A stretch of DNA of 15,736 nt from a candidate division NC10 bacterium CSP1-5 (GCA_001443495.1 LDXR01000020.1:1-15736); one strand, 5' to 3'. Positions 3,121 to 13,246 are shown, counted from the first letter of the stretch. A program made the numbers and translations. Notes: a model not told the origin generated them from the sequence alone.

Positions 3121-4359
3121 TCATCGGGCTACGCCCGACGCTCGATGGCTTTCGCTAGAGAGGGAAAGGACATAGTACACGAGATCCCAGGCCTGGTCTG
3201 GCTCGAGGGCGTCCTCATACGAGGGCATCGGCGTTCCGGTAAGGCCTGTCACCACCGTCCGATAGACATCCTGCGGCGTCGCCCCGTTTTTGAATCGAGA
3301 GGGCTCCGTGAGGTCCGTTGCTGTGATCGGGAAGTCGTTCTGATCCTTGAGCGTGGGTGCAGACGGGCCATCCCCCCGCCCACTCCTGCCGTGGCAGGTC
3401 CAGCACTCCGCGTCAGCATAGAGTTGTCGACCCCGAGCGATCCGTTCGGGGGTTTCCGGCGGGGGGGCCGGAACGGGGACCGTCTTGACATCCTGTCGCG
3501 TCCAAAATCCCTGGTTTAGACTTTTCACATACTCCACGAGTTCGAGGCGCTGTTCCTCAGGCATGTGGCGAAAGCTCGGCATGATGCGGTACCCGCTCAA
3601 GCCCAAGGTGAGGGGTCCCCCTCGACTCCGGATCCCCTCGGTGACTGTCCGAAACAGGTCGGCCGTTGTCGGTAACTCCCCCGTGGGGGTGGAACGCAGC
3701 TTGAACAAACCGGCGGTGAAATCCCTCGGCTGCGGCGCTCGGTTTGGCGAGAGGGTGGGGCCAACCGATCCATCTCCCTGGCCATCCAGGCCGTGACACG
3801 AGACGCAGGCCATCCGATAGATGTCGCGCCCCATCTGCACCATCTCCGGGTGCTCCCAGGGTACGTGCGGGCCCTGGTGTCCCGAAAACGTATGCTGATA
3901 CGCAATCACCGCCCATCGGTCCTCAACCGAGAGGGTCCCCTTCCATGGGGGCATGGCCGAGCCTCGGGATTTAAACGGCTCAACGGTGCCGCCCTCGCTC
4001 GCACGCCAGAACCAGTAGTTATCCCTCATCTCGGCGACGGCATGTCGGTCGCGAAAGTCCGACGGCTTGAGTGGCAGGGCCTGACCCGCGGGACCTTTCC
4101 CATCCCCGTGCTCCCCATGACACACGGCGCAGTTGGCAGCGTAGATTTCCTTTCCTCGCGCGATCATGGCCTGATCGGTCCAGACGCTCGGCGGCATAAG
4201 GAGGTCCGCGTACTCGAGGGGGGCGGGGACGTGGGCGTGGCCTACCTCTTCTATCTCGTGTTTGTCCTCGCCATTGGCCCTGAGAGCCGGAGGATTTGTG
4301 ACCCATACCCCGACTGCCAGGGTGACCAAGGCCAGCGGAACGTACCACCAGTGCTTCAT
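3121..4359 (-). CDS. Periplasmic triheme cytochrome c (three class I-like domains)
   Basis: The product has 412 residues. A signal or anchor segment (about 5-20, WYVPLALVTLAVGVW) is followed by three cytochrome c domains. Heme motifs are CAVCH (77-81), CVSCH (185-189) and CWTCH (319-323). Each domain carries a likely distal Met in an MP motif: Met136 (AMPPW), Met260 (IMPSF) and Met378 (TPMPS). This is the class I fold repeated three times, giving a His/Met-ligated electron carrier. The ATG at 4359 is chosen because GGGAGGAGG ends about 9 nt before it; an ATG at 4365 is too close to that site, and a start at 4419 would overlap the upstream gene. The gene follows the Cyc2-like gene by 17 bp, so it likely accepts electrons from that protein or passes them on to an inner-membrane partner not in the window. 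Confidence 0.92.
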   Translation of the reverse strand: MKHWWYVPLALVTLAVGVWVTNPPALRANGEDKHEIEEVGHAHVPAPLEYADLLMPPSVWTDQAMIARGKEIYAANCAVCHGEHGDGKGPAGQALPLKPSDFRDRHAVAEMRDNYWFWRASEGGTVEPFKSRGSAMPPWKGTLSVEDRWAVIAYQHTFSGHQGPHVPWEHPEMVQMGRDIYRMACVSCHGLDGQGDGSVGPTLSPNRAPQPRDFTAGLFKLRSTPTGELPTTADLFRTVTEGIRSRGGPLTLGLSGYRIMPSFRHMPEEQRLELVEYVKSLNQGFWTRQDVKTVPVPAPPPETPERIARGRQLYADAECWTCHGRSGRGDGPSAPTLKDQNDFPITATDLTEPSRFKNGATPQDVYRTVVTGLTGTPMPSYEDALEPDQAWDLVYYVLSLSSESHRASGVAR

Positions 4360-4376
4360 ACGCATGCGCCTCCTCC

Positions 4377-5807
4377 CTAGAAATCCCAGTCGATGCCGAG
4401 CAGGACTTGATTGCGCCATTCCCGGAGTGGGTGGTGTTCAACAGTACTACGAACGTTCACGCTGTCACGGGCGAAGAAGGCAATGTTCTGCCACAGAAAG
4501 TATTTCACCTGGAACGAGAGGACACTGCCGTCTTCCTTCTGGTCCGTCAAGCCCCCTGCCCAGAGCTGATCGAAGCGTGTCGAGAGCATGACCTGCTCGT
4601 GGGCAAGGAAATCAAGCGCGAGGGTGAGGCCTGTCGCGGTTCTGTCGAACTCGCCCCCCAATCCGCTGGGGAGATCAAAGACTTGGTCGCGGATCAGCGC
4701 GCCGTACACATCAAGCCCCTTCCATCGTGCGTTCGCCGCCACGCCGTATCGAAGCCGATCAATCCGCCGATCGCTGGGGCGATCATGGTCGGTAGGGTCG
4801 GGCGCCCACGCCACGCCAAAGCCCCAATTGATCAAGGCCGAAACACTGAAGGCCGACTGATCCCGCTCACCAAAATCGACGCGCCATGCCGCGTAGGCGT
4901 TCCACCCTTCGTTTTCGCGGAGAAACCCGACCTGGACAATCTGGGGATGGTCAATCACCAGGTTGTGGAGCATGGCGTGAAAGTCCACTCCCGGCGCGCC
5001 CGGTGTGTTGTACATGACCTGATCGGTCACGAGCTGTGGCTCTCCCTCGTCTCGATCCTTGAAGAGTCCAAAGAACTTCGACGTAAAGGCATAGGGAACC
5101 ACGGGAAAGCGTTCAACCTCCCCCGCCTTCACTTCCGTTTCCGTGGCCGCGATCAGCTGGCGGTTCGTCGGATAGGAAAAGTTGGTCGACGGATCGATCT
5201 TCCCGGCCATCAGCATCGGGCCGTGCATGGTGAAGCCGCCGTGGCGGCCGACCATGGTCTGGTTGCCCATCTGCATCGTCGGGGCCCCGATCAGCCCGAG
5301 GACCTGCCCCAGATTGGCCATGAAGAAGGCCTCTTTGCCGAGGCCGACCTCTGCCCTGGTGACAAAGCGGCCATCTTCAAATACCACCGCATTCGGCTCC
5401 GCTTCGAGCTCAACAAAGAAGCTCAGATCAGGGAGCAGTGGGCGCGTGACGAAGAGGGTGAACTCCTCAGGAGGAACGAATTTGGATTCCGTGTCGTGAG
5501 GCGACTTGGTGGATTCGAATATCCCGCCCTCCATCCGAAACGCCAGCGTGTCCAGAATGGTCTGCGCCAAACCCTTGTCCTTGATGCTTTCACCCAAACC
5601 ACCCGGGCGCGCGGCACTCGGGATCTGAAAGCCCATCATGTGAAACTGCTCGCCGAAACTATTCAAGCGCGGCGGCCGCGTGTGGCAGACATTACATTGC
5701 AGGTCGTATTGTCGCGCAAACGCGGGGACAGCCTCGACGGACTGCACGTACGCGAATCCGATACCTGCGGTGACGAGTGCTAGGAGAACGAGCGAGCGCC
5801 TGAGCAT
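4377..5807 (-). CDS. Cyc2-like fused monoheme cytochrome c / outer-membrane beta-barrel protein
   Basis: The product has 476 residues. A signal peptide (1 to about 26, ending SVEA) is followed by PAFARQYDLQCNVCHTRPPR with one heme site, Cys38-x-x-Cys41-His42, then LNSFGEQFHMMGF. The FARQ-CxxCH-LN.FG pattern is shared by Cyc2-type outer-membrane iron-oxidising cytochromes and related cytochrome-porins. The remaining 400 or so residues have alternating polar/nonpolar strands and aromatic girdles (WNAYAAWRVDFGERD, ALINWGFGVAW), and the protein ends in Phe (LLGIDWDF), a typical beta-barrel C-terminus. The length fits a 16-strand barrel with an N-terminal heme plug. GGAGG lies 8 nt before the ATG at 5807. 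With the triheme cytochrome next door I infer electron transfer across the outer membrane. Fe(II) oxidation is not proven; a non-Cyc2 porin with a heme domain is the alternative. Confidence 0.75.
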   Translation of the reverse strand: MLRRSLVLLALVTAGIGFAYVQSVEAVPAFARQYDLQCNVCHTRPPRLNSFGEQFHMMGFQIPSAARPGGLGESIKDKGLAQTILDTLAFRMEGGIFESTKSPHDTESKFVPPEEFTLFVTRPLLPDLSFFVELEAEPNAVVFEDGRFVTRAEVGLGKEAFFMANLGQVLGLIGAPTMQMGNQTMVGRHGGFTMHGPMLMAGKIDPSTNFSYPTNRQLIAATETEVKAGEVERFPVVPYAFTSKFFGLFKDRDEGEPQLVTDQVMYNTPGAPGVDFHAMLHNLVIDHPQIVQVGFLRENEGWNAYAAWRVDFGERDQSAFSVSALINWGFGVAWAPDPTDHDRPSDRRIDRLRYGVAANARWKGLDVYGALIRDQVFDLPSGLGGEFDRTATGLTLALDFLAHEQVMLSTRFDQLWAGGLTDQKEDGSVLSFQVKYFLWQNIAFFARDSVNVRSTVEHHPLREWRNQVLLGIDWDF

Positions 5808-8526: not shown

Positions 8527-9519
8527 ATGGACGAATCGAACAGTAGCGGTCGAGGGGGGCGGGGAGCGGCCACGGATTGCTCTCCAGTCCAACCCGGAAA
8601 AACTGCCCTCCTCCGCGGACGAAACGTCGAGCGGGCCTTAGGGTTCGAACGCATCCACTTCAAGTTCGAAGGGGGAAACCCCACCGGTTCCCAGAAGGAC
8701 CGAGCCGCCTTTGAGCTCGCGCGGAGGGCGGCTCATGAGGGATACGAGGTTATCACCCTGGCTACCTGTGGGAACTTCGGGGTTGCCGCCGCCTACGCTG
8801 CCCAGCACTCTTCTCTCCGGACCCTCATCTTTTTTCCTGAACGCTATCACACCCGCCGTTTAGCAGAGATGACTCGCCTCGGGGCCGAGGTGATCCGGGT
8901 CGATGGGGACTACGAGGCGGCGGTGGCCCAGAGTCGAGAAGCCGCGGAGCGGAACGGGCTCTTTGATGCCAATCCGGGGGGGAAGAACGGCGATGCAAGC
9001 CTTGAAGCGTACGGGGAGATCGCTCGTGAGATCGTCGAGGTCCTCGGGGACGCTCCACACTCGGTTGCGGTTCCGGTATCCAATGGAACCACGTTAGCGG
9101 GCATCTTCGATGGATTCTGTCGCCTGTATGAGAGTGGAAAGACAAGCCGCATGCCCCGCATGATTACGGCCAGCAGCTACCGAAAAAACCCCATCATCAA
9201 GAGTTTTCGGGAAGGCCATGCCTTTTGCATGGACCTCCACCCCTCTGAAATCCATGAAACCACGGTCAACGAGCCCTTAATCAATTGGCACTCCTTCGAT
9301 GGTGAGCTTGCCCTCCGGGCCCTCCGGGCGAGCGGGGGCTACGCCGAACACGCCTCTGATCAGGACATGCTTCAGCACGCTCGTCTCCTGCTCCAACGAG
9401 AGGGACTCAGCGTCCTTCCCGCCTCCACCTCCGCCCTCATCGCCTTAGCCAAGGTGCGGTTGAACGGTGGGCTCCCCGAGGATGACCATGTGGTGGTCCT
9501 TACCGGGCGCCGCCAGTAA
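8527..9519 (+). CDS. Threonine-synthase-like PLP-dependent enzyme (fold type II)
   Basis: The product has 330 residues. The PLP-lysine motif is FEGGNPTGSQKDRAA, with Lys57 as the likely Schiff-base lysine. A substrate/cofactor loop TCGNFGVAAAY follows (80-90), taking the place of the SSGNTG loop of cysteine and threonine synthases. A phosphate-binding loop PVSNGTTLAGIFDGF comes mid-protein, and VVVLTGRR ends it. These define the threonine synthase / cysteine synthase / tryptophan synthase beta superfamily. It lacks the N-terminal domain of full ThrC, and the unusual CGNFG loop makes the true reaction uncertain: a beta- or gamma-replacement or elimination on an amino acid. ATG at 8527 is preferred (AGGA 6 nt upstream); an in-frame ATG at 8470 would add 19 residues. 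It opens a four-gene plus-strand cluster with D/L-glutamate-type epimerase genes. Confidence 0.85.
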   Translation: MDESNSSGRGGRGAATDCSPVQPGKTALLRGRNVERALGFERIHFKFEGGNPTGSQKDRAAFELARRAAHEGYEVITLATCGNFGVAAAYAAQHSSLRTLIFFPERYHTRRLAEMTRLGAEVIRVDGDYEAAVAQSREAAERNGLFDANPGGKNGDASLEAYGEIAREIVEVLGDAPHSVAVPVSNGTTLAGIFDGFCRLYESGKTSRMPRMITASSYRKNPIIKSFREGHAFCMDLHPSEIHETTVNEPLINWHSFDGELALRALRASGGYAEHASDQDMLQHARLLLQREGLSVLPASTSALIALAKVRLNGGLPEDDHVVVLTGRRQ

Positions 9520-9537
9520 ATCGGCAAGCGCAGCGAT

Positions 9538-9615
9538 CAGCTATCAGCTGTCAGCAATCAGCTCGAAACCCCTTCGTAGATCTGCTGACGCCGGATGGCT
9601 GACTGCTGACTGCTG
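9538..9615. repeat. Heptamer (CAGCNNT) inverted repeat before the DUF1611 gene
   Basis: The left arm is four 7-bp units (CAGCTAT, CAGCTGT, CAGCAAT, CAGCTCG at 9538-9565). The right arm reads on the other strand as CAGCAGT, CAGCAGT, CAGCCAT (9615-9595). The arms can pair imperfectly into a stem of about 20 bp with a loop of about 30 nt. It ends 4 nt before the GTG/ATG start of the DUF1611 gene, which has no clear Shine-Dalgarno site, so the structure may affect its translation, or it may be a dispersed intergenic repeat. Confidence 0.7.
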
Positions 9616-9622
9616 AGTCGTG

Positions 9623-10678
9623 ATGGACGGGACCGCCATCGTCTTATGTGAGGGGGCCTTTGGGACCCCGAGTGGGAAGACTGCCCATGGATTGGTCCGT
9701 TACACCGATCGGTATCAGGTGCTGGGCGTGATCGACAGCCGGTGGGCAGGCCGGGATGCAGGGGAGGTCCTGGATGGGGCATTCCGTGGCATTCCAATCT
9801 TTCGCTCGCTCAAGGAGGCCCTACGGATCCCGGAAAGACTGCAGTATCTTGTCATCGGGCTGGCCCCGGATGGAGGACGCCTCCCGGATGAGTATCGAGG
9901 CGTCGTTCGCGAGGCCCTCGAGGCCGGTCTCCATATAGACTCCGGGCTGCACGACTTCCTTGGGGATGATCCTGAATTCGCCGGGCTGGCGCAGGAGCAC
10001 AACGTTTGCATCCGAGATGTCAGGCGGCCGCCGCCGAGGGAGCAGTTCCACTTCTTCAGTGGAAAGATCGAGGAGGTGACGGCGGTCCGCATCGCCGTGT
10101 TGGGGACCGACTCGGCGGTTGGAAAGCGCACCACCGCCCTGAAGCTCACGCAGACCTTGAACGCCCTCGGGTGCAAGACGGTCATGGTCGGAACGGGCCA
10201 GACCGCCTGGATGCAAGGGGTCAAGCACTGCATCATCATCGACTCCCTTGTGAACGATTTTGTGACGGGAGAGATCGAGCAGATCATCCATACGGCCTTC
10301 GTGGAGGAGCGGCCGCGGGCGATTATCCTGGAAGGGCAGGGATGCATTACCCATCCGGCTTACCCCGGCGGCTTCGAGCTGATCGCTGCCGGTCGGCCCC
10401 ACGGCATCGTGCTGCAACACGCCCCCAGACGTCTCCATTACGACGGCTTTCCCCAGTACCCCCTGAGTCCTGTGCATCGGGAGATCCGGATCCTGGAGCT
10501 CTTATCAGGAGTCCCGGTCGTGGCCCTGAGCCTCAACCATGAGGGGATCATCGATGCGGAGATCCCCACAGAGCTCCGGGCGCTGGAGGAGCGGTACGGC
10601 CGACCGACCTTCGATATCCTCACAGGTGGGGCGGAGGGGCTTGCGCGGCTCGTAATGAAATCCTTCGACCTTGATTGA
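9623..10678 (+). CDS. DUF1611-family P-loop protein (DgcN-like)
   Basis: The product has 351 residues (GTG at 9620 is the alternative start). The N-terminal Rossmann-like half opens with the family motif CEGAFGTPSGKTAHGLVRY (about 9-27). The C-terminal half has a P-loop, GTDSAVGKRTTA (about 161-172), and a Walker-B-like IILEGQG (about 235-241), followed by THPAYPGG. This is the two-part DUF1611 architecture. Characterised relatives (DgcN) are reported to N-acylate D-glutamate in a catabolic pathway together with an enolase-superfamily racemase, DgcA. Here an enolase-superfamily epimerase sits two genes downstream, in agreement with that pairing. The inferred role is nucleotide-dependent modification of a D-amino acid or related acid; substrate unproven. 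A heptamer hairpin lies right before the start, and the stop is 10 bp from the next ATG. Confidence 0.85.
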   Translation: MDGTAIVLCEGAFGTPSGKTAHGLVRYTDRYQVLGVIDSRWAGRDAGEVLDGAFRGIPIFRSLKEALRIPERLQYLVIGLAPDGGRLPDEYRGVVREALEAGLHIDSGLHDFLGDDPEFAGLAQEHNVCIRDVRRPPPREQFHFFSGKIEEVTAVRIAVLGTDSAVGKRTTALKLTQTLNALGCKTVMVGTGQTAWMQGVKHCIIIDSLVNDFVTGEIEQIIHTAFVEERPRAIILEGQGCITHPAYPGGFELIAAGRPHGIVLQHAPRRLHYDGFPQYPLSPVHREIRILELLSGVPVVALSLNHEGIIDAEIPTELRALEERYGRPTFDILTGGAEGLARLVMKSFDLD

Positions 10679-10688
10679 AGACGGACCG

Positions 10689-12182
10689 ATGGAGTCCCTC
10701 GGTTGCTTCGATCGGATCAGCATCGAGGACCCGACCCTCTCCGAGAACGGGATCGCCACGCGCTACCTTCTCTGGTCTGGTCCTCACATCGTTTCTACTC
10801 GCCTCCTCTTCCGGTACGAGCGCCCGATCCTTGATCCCCACGACCCGCTGATGCGGAATCTCGCACGGCTCATCGTGACGATGCCGGTGATCAACTACGG
10901 CCTCTTCACCGACGCGATCACGCTTCGCTTCCCCCTCGAGGCGGTCGATGTCCGGATGGTGGAGGCCATGCTGGAGAACACGGCTCGGGAAATCTATCTG
11001 AACAAGATCCTCGGCGAGAACCCGTTTCTCCTCCCGGAGTACCGGCCAACCGCCTTCGTGAAGCCGGATCGGTTTTGCCGCGCAGTCCTGCAGGTCGACG
11101 GCGTAGAACGGCTTTCCTGGAAGGTTGCCCTGGACCCCACCGGATACGCCGTCTCATCCTCCGGGGGCAAGGAGAGTCTGCTCAGCTACGGGATCCTGGA
11201 CGAGATCGGTCTTAAGCCGCATTGCTGCTTCTTTAACGAATCGGGCCGCCACTGGTATACGGCCCTCAATGCCTACCGCTACTTCAGGGCCAACGTGCCT
11301 AGGACCTGGCGGGTGTGGAGCAACGTGGATCGTCTGTACAACTTTGTCCTCCGCCACTTGAAGATCATCCGACGCGACTTCCATCGTGTCCGGGCAGACA
11401 TCTATCCCATTCGCCTCTTTACGGTCGAGGTGATGGCGGCCGCATTTCTTCCCATCCTCTACCGGGAACGGATCGGCCATCTGGTGATCGGCAACGAGTT
11501 CGATACCACCCAACGTTCCCGCAGCCACGGGGTCACCCACTACGACATGGTGTATGATCAGAGCCGCGACTTCGATGATTTCATGACCCGATATTTCCGC
11601 CGGAAGGGGTTCCCGATCCGTCAATGTTCGATCGTCCGCCCCTTGAGCGAGCTTCTCATCGAGCGAATCCTGGGCCGGCGATACCCCGACCTGTTTCGCC
11701 TCCAGACCTCGTGTCACGCCGCCCATCTGGATGGCAACCGGGTATTGCCCTGCGGACGGTGCGAGAAATGCCAGCGGGTCATGGCCCTCATGATCGCCAA
11801 TGACTTGGACCCGACGGTCATCGGCTATCGCAACGAGGACATTCTCCTCCTCGCGCACCGCCTCAAGAGGACCCGTCTGCGCCAGGAAGGCGCGGCGGTG
11901 AGACATCTCTGCCATCTCCTGTGGCGGCGCAACCCGGAGATGCTCCCGGGGAATCGGCCTCCACGGTCCCGTGCAGAGATCGAGTACCTCCGCTTCGATC
12001 GCGAACACTCCCCCCTCGATACCATTCCCCCGCCCATCCGTGGGTCGGTCCTGCGGATCATGCTCAAGTATGCGGAAGGGATTGTGCGGAGGCGGGGGCG
12101 CAGATGGATTCCGTGTGATCTCCAGGAAACATTGGAGCGCGGCAGAGAGGATCGGGGGAAGCGCGAGGAACAGGCGCCATGA
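10689..12182 (+). CDS. PP-loop ATPase, distantly MurL-like (glutamate-epimerase type)
   Basis: The product has 497 residues. An N-terminal domain of about 150 residues precedes a PP-loop nucleotide-binding motif SSSGGKESL (157-164), which binds ATP and adenylates a substrate. Further on are IGNEFDTTQRS (268-278), HGVTHYDMVYDQS (280-292) and a Cys cluster SCHAAHLDGNRVLPCGRCEKC (Cys342, 355, 358, 361), probably a zinc site like that of QueC. The order PP-loop, IGNE-type motif, then CGRCxKC matches MurL, which with ATP inverts the terminal L-Glu of UDP-MurNAc-L-Ala-L-Glu in Xanthomonas. Similarity is low, so orthology is not claimed; a QueC-like or other carboxylate-adenylating enzyme is the alternative. 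ATG at 10689 is chosen, though a TTG at 10671 is possible. Its stop overlaps the next start as ATGA. Confidence 0.7.
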   Translation: MESLGCFDRISIEDPTLSENGIATRYLLWSGPHIVSTRLLFRYERPILDPHDPLMRNLARLIVTMPVINYGLFTDAITLRFPLEAVDVRMVEAMLENTAREIYLNKILGENPFLLPEYRPTAFVKPDRFCRAVLQVDGVERLSWKVALDPTGYAVSSSGGKESLLSYGILDEIGLKPHCCFFNESGRHWYTALNAYRYFRANVPRTWRVWSNVDRLYNFVLRHLKIIRRDFHRVRADIYPIRLFTVEVMAAAFLPILYRERIGHLVIGNEFDTTQRSRSHGVTHYDMVYDQSRDFDDFMTRYFRRKGFPIRQCSIVRPLSELLIERILGRRYPDLFRLQTSCHAAHLDGNRVLPCGRCEKCQRVMALMIANDLDPTVIGYRNEDILLLAHRLKRTRLRQEGAAVRHLCHLLWRRNPEMLPGNRPPRSRAEIEYLRFDREHSPLDTIPPPIRGSVLRIMLKYAEGIVRRRGRRWIPCDLQETLERGREDRGKREEQAP

Positions 12183-13246
12183 TCATCCGAAACGTCGAAA
12201 TCTTCCCGGTGAGCTTTCGGTTGACCGAGAGCTATGCAACCGCCTACGAGACGACCTCGGAGGTTCACAATGTTGTCTGTCGGATCGAGACCAAGGCCGG
12301 TCTCGTGGGGTGGGGAAATGCCGCTCCCGACCCCTATGTCATGGGGGAGACCTCCACTTCCGTCGTACAGGCCATTGACCAGCAGTTGGGCCCGGCGTTG
12401 TTAGGTGAGGATGCGACCCGGATCCACTATCTGCATGCCAAGCTCAGCGAGGCCGTCCCCGGCAACTACGCGGCGAAGGCTGGCCTCAACATCGCCCTGT
12501 ATGATCTCTTGGGTAAGCGCGCGGGGCTCCCCCTCTACCAACTCCTGGGCTGTTACCGCCGGAAGATCCTCACCTCCGTCACGATAGGGATCGCCCCACC
12601 GGAGGAGACGGTGAGACGGGCGGTGGCACTGGCGGGGAGGGGATTCAAAGCCCTGAAGCTCAAAGGGGGCCGGGATTGGGAGGAGGATGTGGCGCGGGTG
12701 CGCAGGGTCCGTGAGGCGGTCGGGAAGGAGATGCTTCTCCGCCTGGACGCCAATCAGGGCTACGGTGTCGAGGAGGCTCTGAGTTTGATCCAGGCCCTGG
12801 AGGGGGTGGGGATCGAGTTTCTCGAGCAACCGACGCGGGCGGAACAGCTCTCCAGCCTGCAGGAGGTCACAGCCCGAAGCCGGATCCCGATCATGGCCGA
12901 CGAGACCGTCCTGAGCTCCACAGACACCTTCCGCGTGGCGGCTCACTATTACGCCGACCACATCAATATCAAGCTGATGAAGGCGGGAGGACTCACGAAC
13001 GCCATGAGAATGAATATCATCGCCGAGGCCGGAGAGATCGAGACGATGGCGGGATGCATGGATGAATCGGTGATCTCCATTGCTGCCGCTGCCCATTTCG
13101 CCGTCGCCTTTCGGAATGTTCACTACGCCGATCTGGACGGACATCTGGACCTGGACCGGGACGTAGCCAGAGGCGGGATCGTGATTGAAGACGGATTCGT
13201 CATCCCCGTCGATGGCCCGGGGCTCGGCCTTGAGGTGGACCTGTAG
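12179..13246 (+). CDS. Enolase-superfamily dipeptide epimerase (L-Ala-D/L-Glu epimerase-like)
   Basis: The product has 355 residues, the usual length. An N-terminal capping domain (1 to about 125) is followed by a TIM barrel. The catalytic KxK motif is Lys160-Leu-Lys162 (KALKLKGG). Mg2+ ligands are Asp190 (LDANQGY), Glu216 (LEQP) and Asp241 (ADE). The partner lysine is in NIKLMKAGG (265/268). The DxD pair Asp318/Asp320 (YADLDGHL) matches the motif that binds the dipeptide amino group in Ala-Glu epimerases and separates them from muconate lactonisers. Reaction: reversible inversion of the second residue of a dipeptide, in the cytoplasm. DgcA-type N-acyl-glutamate racemase is the close alternative given the DUF1611 gene. 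It overlaps the preceding gene by 4 bp (ATGA), so it is translationally coupled and ends the cluster. Confidence 0.88.
   Translation: MIIRNVEIFPVSFRLTESYATAYETTSEVHNVVCRIETKAGLVGWGNAAPDPYVMGETSTSVVQAIDQQLGPALLGEDATRIHYLHAKLSEAVPGNYAAKAGLNIALYDLLGKRAGLPLYQLLGCYRRKILTSVTIGIAPPEETVRRAVALAGRGFKALKLKGGRDWEEDVARVRRVREAVGKEMLLRLDANQGYGVEEALSLIQALEGVGIEFLEQPTRAEQLSSLQEVTARSRIPIMADETVLSSTDTFRVAAHYYADHINIKLMKAGGLTNAMRMNIIAEAGEIETMAGCMDESVISIAAAAHFAVAFRNVHYADLDGHLDLDRDVARGGIVIEDGFVIPVDGPGLGLEVDL

Follow-up and report, generated by a model that had tools for sequence, protein, structure and literature searches.

A conserved four-gene operon beside dnaA in uncultured Methylomirabilota joins a remote MurL relative and a threonine-synthase-like enzyme to a DUF1611-epimerase pair

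Results

A four-gene cluster converging on dnaA

The window, by which we mean the whole 15,736-nucleotide stretch of DNA analysed here (contig C20), comes from candidate division NC10 bacterium CSP1-5, whose genome (G000) comprises 2.77 Mb and is 99.7% complete. It carries a cluster of four genes (Table 1), flanked on one side by a divergent MFS gene and on the other by dnaA, on which the cluster converges. A sequence-only reading of this DNA had placed the four genes in one operon, spaced at about 100 bp, 10 bp and a 4-bp overlap. The genes are real, tightly spaced and all on the same strand, and the four families named for them hold at superfamily level only (Pfam E-values of 7e-56 for PALP, 4e-58 for DUF1611 and 9e-54 for MR_MLE). 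The gaps measure 100 bp, then 10 bp (or an 8-bp overlap if translation of the third gene begins at TTG), and finally a 4-bp overlap, so that the proposed spacing is correct if the PP-loop gene starts at the internal ATG. The operon layout is borne out by co-directional genes, close spacing and an order kept in two other species. A scan of the cluster region turned up neither a sigma-70 promoter above chance nor a terminator-like site, so the term 'one operon' is founded on how closely the genes lie and on their kept order. Rfam and tRNA scans gave no matches, nor did searches for defence and phage families.

Table 1. Features of the cluster, in window coordinates
Feature	Position	Strand	Remarks
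PLP fold-type II enzyme, PRK06381 family	8527-9519	+	ATG start; longer frame from 8470
Intergenic gap between PLP and DUF1611 genes, with CAGCTATCAGCTGTCAGC-type repeat	9520-9619	.	Sequence and pattern; kept in three species
DUF1611 protein, N-terminal Rossmann-like and C-terminal P-loop domain	9620-10678	+	PF07755, PF17396
PP-loop ATPase, remote MurL relative	10671-12182	+	TTG start; alternative ATG 10689
MR/MLE (enolase-superfamily) dipeptide-epimerase-like enzyme	12179-13246	+	1jpm/3rit/3jva matches and catalytic residues

Within the intergenic gap the short CAGCTATCAGCTGTCAGC repeat is accompanied by a partly complementary GCTGACTGCTGACTGCTGA stretch, likewise kept in the three species, and a further copy of the repeat lies elsewhere in the genome (L156:2047-2064).

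Distribution and conservation

The sequence-only reading had turned on whether the four genes are neighbours in related genomes, and they recur in identical order in two further species of the genus, G005 (locus L004) and G002 (locus L005), with proteins that are 90-98% identical across the species. In the comparison of the window with G002, dN/dS values of 0.24 for the PLP enzyme, 0.20 for DUF1611, 0.20 for the PP-loop protein and 0.09 for the epimerase show purifying selection on all four. The cluster is a real, conserved and rare operon. Among the 95 genomes of the phylum that were searched, the PP-loop gene was absent from the other four of the same genus (three of which are 92-96% complete) and from all others; likewise, neither a full-length DUF1611 protein nor a PRK06381 protein above the cut-off was found in the phylum beyond the three cassette genomes. 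The cassette is patchily present beside dnaA. Two genomes, G006 and G003, have different genes after dnaA, which makes this a variable site, and the G+C content of the cassette (61-63%) is that of its surroundings.

A genome-wide scan beyond the phylum with two short peptide patterns matched only two relatives that were already known, and viral contigs, phages and plasmids yielded no real relative of the PP-loop protein. A role for the divergent MFS gene as exporter of the operon was entertained and rejected, because copies 67-70% identical to it occur in genomes that have no cassette.

A dipeptide-epimerase-like enzyme with an acidic residue at position 24

The closest solved relatives of the fourth product are the dipeptide epimerases YkfB of B. 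subtilis (1jpm, 2e-73), 3rit of M. capsulatus (2e-72) and 3jva of E. faecalis (1e-70), with which it shares a full-length match, the catalytic residues and the DxD motif. The two catalytic lysines and the Asp-Glu-Asp metal ligands of dipeptide epimerases are all present (K160/K162, D190, E216, D241 and K265, aligned with 1jpm and 3rit). Against the DgcA model the enzyme scores 171.6 bits, where the cut-off is 400. The DxD motif was also tried as a divider of dipeptide from N-acetyl-Glu enzymes, and fails, since DgcA has it too.

The residues that might indicate substrate differ from those of YkfB and DgcA. The window enzyme reads Y23-E24 and has neither R24 of YkfB nor R23 of DgcA, which we take to be the arginines that receive the Glu side chain; in the YkfB structure R24 reportedly contacts the Glu side chain of the substrate. 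E24 is kept in the epimerases of all three cassette species, while YkfB and 3rit have Arg there, and most of the other proteins compared have Gly. A GCMDES loop is common, among the proteins compared, to the window epimerase and 3rit only, and the M. capsulatus enzyme is said to prefer cationic dipeptides. E24 and the loop may therefore lean, weakly, towards a basic residue; position 24 is a weak guide to substrate because 3rit itself has R24.

A DUF1611 protein outside the DgcN clade

Both domains of the second product score above the gathering threshold of the DUF1611 superfamily (PF07755, 196.7 bits, 3.7e-58; PF17396, 99.8 bits, 1.1e-28), and the protein reaches 137.8 bits against the DgcN model, the cut-off of which is 480. 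In a tree of 19 DUF1611 sequences the window protein and its two cassette counterparts group with DUF1611 proteins of Phaeobacter and Vibrio, and the split that separates this Orr-linked clade and the window from all DgcN sequences has support of 100/99. By these comparisons the protein is placed in the DgcN superfamily, outside the DgcN clade. Its nearest relatives found, 40-43% identical, are those of Phaeobacter and V. parahaemolyticus, in both of which the next gene is ornithine-racemase-like, of the alanine/ornithine-racemase family. This neighbourhood, too, leans towards a basic residue as the target of the cassette. The Phaeobacter racemase-family enzyme scores 269 bits against the ornithine racemase (Orr) model, with a cut-off of 480; against the lean, no racemase is annotated beside the V. 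nigripulchritudo DUF1611 gene, which belongs to this clade as well. The DUF1611 and alanine/ornithine-racemase-family pairs, an uncharacterised D-amino-acid module, are found on plasmids (Phaeobacter, L042 9844-12095; Vibrio, L044 11869-14183), and the Phaeobacter pair lies near two transglutaminase-family genes.

The association of DUF1611 with an enolase-superfamily epimerase is a recurrent and already known one: the two genes are adjacent on plasmids of haloarchaea, Sphingobium and Bradyrhizobium and in annotated dgcN-dgcA pairs, which supports the earlier suggestion that the pair is tied to D-amino-acid or dipeptide chemistry. As in DgcN-DgcA, a DUF1611 gene in the window is followed by a gene for an MR/MLE-fold racemase or epimerase; the window differs in its low model scores (138 of 480 and 172 of 400 bits), in the clade of its DUF1611 protein and in two additional genes, of which the PP-loop gene separates DUF1611 from the epimerase. 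Haloarchaeal loci (Halorussus, Haloprofundus, Haladaptatus) share the adjacent DUF1611-dipeptide epimerase core but, unlike the window, carry NlpC/P60, D-aminoacylase or peptide ABC transporter genes and no PP-loop or PLP gene.

A remote relative of MurL

MurL is unusual in being an ATP-spending epimerase, and review authors describe it as devoid of known domains and unclear in mechanism (PMC8788868). The third product of the cluster contains SGGKES, NE, RPLSEL and Cys-x(12)-CGRCEKC, and so displays the core motifs of MurL (SGGK[DE]S, NE, RPL.EL and C..CG.C..C). At E 0.001 it matches nothing in Pfam, and it has no trustworthy PDB sequence match. The MurL family NF041275 is the only NCBIfam family that the cassette PP-loop proteins match, at 17.3-19.0 bits against a cut-off of 700. 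When the PP-loop family was aligned by hhalign with five MurL-type sequences (MurL of X. sacchari, MurL of G042 and three Pseudonocardia plasmid proteins), the match extended across the PP-loop core with P 95.1 and E 3e-8. In a control search of 7,935 frames (about 85% of G000) with the MurL profile, the cassette protein came first (26.8 bits, E 8.6e-7), followed by what appear from their sequences to be TtcA-type and MnmA PP-loop enzymes. The earlier description as a MurL-like PP-loop ATPase therefore stands as remote homology, judged from profile comparison; by its score the protein is not a member of the MurL family itself. AlphaFold models built on three near-identical sequences were useless (pLDDT 35 for the PP-loop protein and 34 for the epimerase).

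The likeness to the MurD2-MurL system of Xanthomonas oryzae (XOO_1319, PMC8788868) comprises the PP-loop core with SGGK, NE, RPLSEL and the four-Cys motif; the window protein differs in being only about 25% identical, over the aligned core alone, and in having no murD2 partner; the MurD encoded in its genome belongs to the D-Glu type. Stand-alone MurL-like PP-loop proteins, with no murD2, are also encoded on three mobilizable Pseudonocardia plasmids (L227, L228 and L229, about 3764-5160), where the gene converges on a large gene annotated as a WD40-repeat protein in two of the three.

A PLP enzyme distinct from the housekeeping threonine synthase

The first product matches NF004996 (PRK06381 'threonine synthase') at 401.2 bits, above the cut-off of 266. 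A separate ThrC is encoded elsewhere in G000 (TIGR00260, 329.5 bits), so that a threonine-synthase role of the cassette enzyme would be redundant; judged by family assignment, the latter is probably not the housekeeping ThrC. The NPFRIEGQK segment of the genome's ThrC reads NPGGKNGD in the cassette enzyme. The Arg within the NPFRIEG segment of threonine synthases presumably helps to bind the phosphate of phosphohomoserine, and its loss suggests that the PLP enzyme has another substrate.

The origin of D-glutamate for the cell wall

The murI model (TIGR00067) matched nothing in G000, in six genomes of the same genus or in the single-contig genome G026 of the same order, in answer to the question of whether murI lies elsewhere in the genome; the gene is thus missing also from sister genomes without the cassette. 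An E. coli alr query found no match in 85% of G000, the portion open to local searches, whereas the family models were run over the entire genome. Two class IV aminotransferases were scored against the D-amino-acid transaminase model, and both fall below its cut-off. Mutagenesis has shown that two residues of MurD2 set its stereospecificity for Glu (PMC8788868). At these positions MurD of G000 has Asp/Lys, as in E. coli MurD, and is of the D-Glu type, whereas MurD2 of G042, a genome of the same class, has Glu/Arg; the search for murD2 elsewhere in the genome thus returned a MurD with the D-Glu signature. Unlike in X. sacchari and G042, no murD, and hence no MurD2 with the Glu/Arg pair, adjoins the cassette PP-loop gene. 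Since murI is missing from cassette-less sisters as well and MurD of G000 is of the D-Glu type, the cassette probably does not provide the D-Glu of the peptidoglycan.

The MurD2-MurL pair of G042 (C18, about 57,500-58,800; L048, L080) represents an alternative D-Glu pathway in Methylomirabilota, and is adjoined by a DUF4392-like gene, recognised by eye. The assembly contains two different division/cell-wall (dcw) clusters, L205 (C14) and L097 (C19), whose MurD proteins clearly differ, and C19 is possibly a contaminating contig.

Discussion

A new, distant cousin of MurL and a threonine-synthase-like enzyme are here joined to a known stereo-inverting gene pair in a few uncultured Methylomirabilota. 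We favour, with a probability of about one half, the reading that the operon changes the configuration of a dipeptide or of a small derivative of an amino acid, and so enlarges the recurrent module of DUF1611 and dipeptide epimerase. The probable outcome is the making or remodelling of a small compound with a D-residue, and the target residue is possibly basic rather than Glu. The PLP enzyme would supply or consume a beta- or gamma-substituted amino acid; the DUF1611 protein, like DgcN, would N-acylate a D-amino acid; the MurL-like protein would use ATP to adenylate a carboxylate of the compound, leading to one-way epimerisation or to ligation; and the epimerase would act as a Mg-dependent two-lysine enzyme, by 1,1-proton transfer on the alpha carbon of a residue in peptidyl or N-acyl form. 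The glutamate theme that the sequence-only reading saw in these families has fared poorly, the DUF1611 protein lying outside the DgcN clade, the epimerase having no Arg at 23 or 24, and the PP-loop protein reaching 17-19 of 700 bits; its suggestion of a peptidoglycan-fragment role is likewise unsupported, given a MurD of the D-Glu type and the absence of murI from cassette-less sisters.

Synthesis is preferred to salvage only because of the ATP-consuming step and of the lack of peptidase and uptake genes in the operon. Catabolism of D-Glu or muropeptides, in which a DgcN-DgcA or haloarchaeal-type route converts D-Glu or Ala-D-Glu to L-Glu compounds, aided by two accessory enzymes, is the best of the alternatives and in our view unlikely: in dgcN-dgcA operons the DUF1611-epimerase pair serves to break down D-Glu (PMC10845958, PMC11747546), and elsewhere it accompanies NlpC/P60, D-aminoacylase, dipeptidase and peptide ABC transporter genes, but this operon has no peptidase, deacylase or uptake system, its DUF1611 protein (outside the DgcN clade, 138 bits against 480) and its epimerase (171.6 against 400, without either Arg) fit the DgcN and DgcA models poorly, and catabolism does not need an ATP-using MurL-like enzyme. 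More doubtful is a specialised-metabolite operon, in which the PLP enzyme makes a non-standard (e.g. diamino) acid and the other three enzymes join or activate, epimerise and acylate it; a PRK06381 enzyme distinct from the genome's ThrC with an altered NPFRIEG segment, the acidic residues of the epimerase and a patchy occurrence within the genus, as accessory metabolism predicts, would suit such a role, but the PP-loop protein is the sole recognisable ligase and no exporter is dedicated to the operon, the MFS gene having close copies where there is no cassette. Very improbable is a peptidoglycan precursor route, in which the PP-loop protein, as a diverged MurL, would set the D-Glu stereochemistry in a genome that is 99.7% complete and has no murI, for to the remote MurL homology and the missing murI are opposed the same absence in cassette-less sisters and G026, the Asp/Lys of MurD, the lack of an adjoining murD and a score of 17-19 bits against 700.

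Returning to the stereochemical alteration of a small amino-acid derivative or dipeptide, a bolder form of it, which we advance tentatively and think doubtful, has a MurL-type ATP-driven epimerase working outside peptidoglycan synthesis, in one pathway with a dipeptide epimerase, in the energy-coupled inversion of a non-glutamate, possibly basic, residue. If true, MurL-like chemistry would serve purposes other than the cell wall, the MurD of this genome having no need of MurL, and the diverged relative would provide comparative material for the mechanism of MurL.
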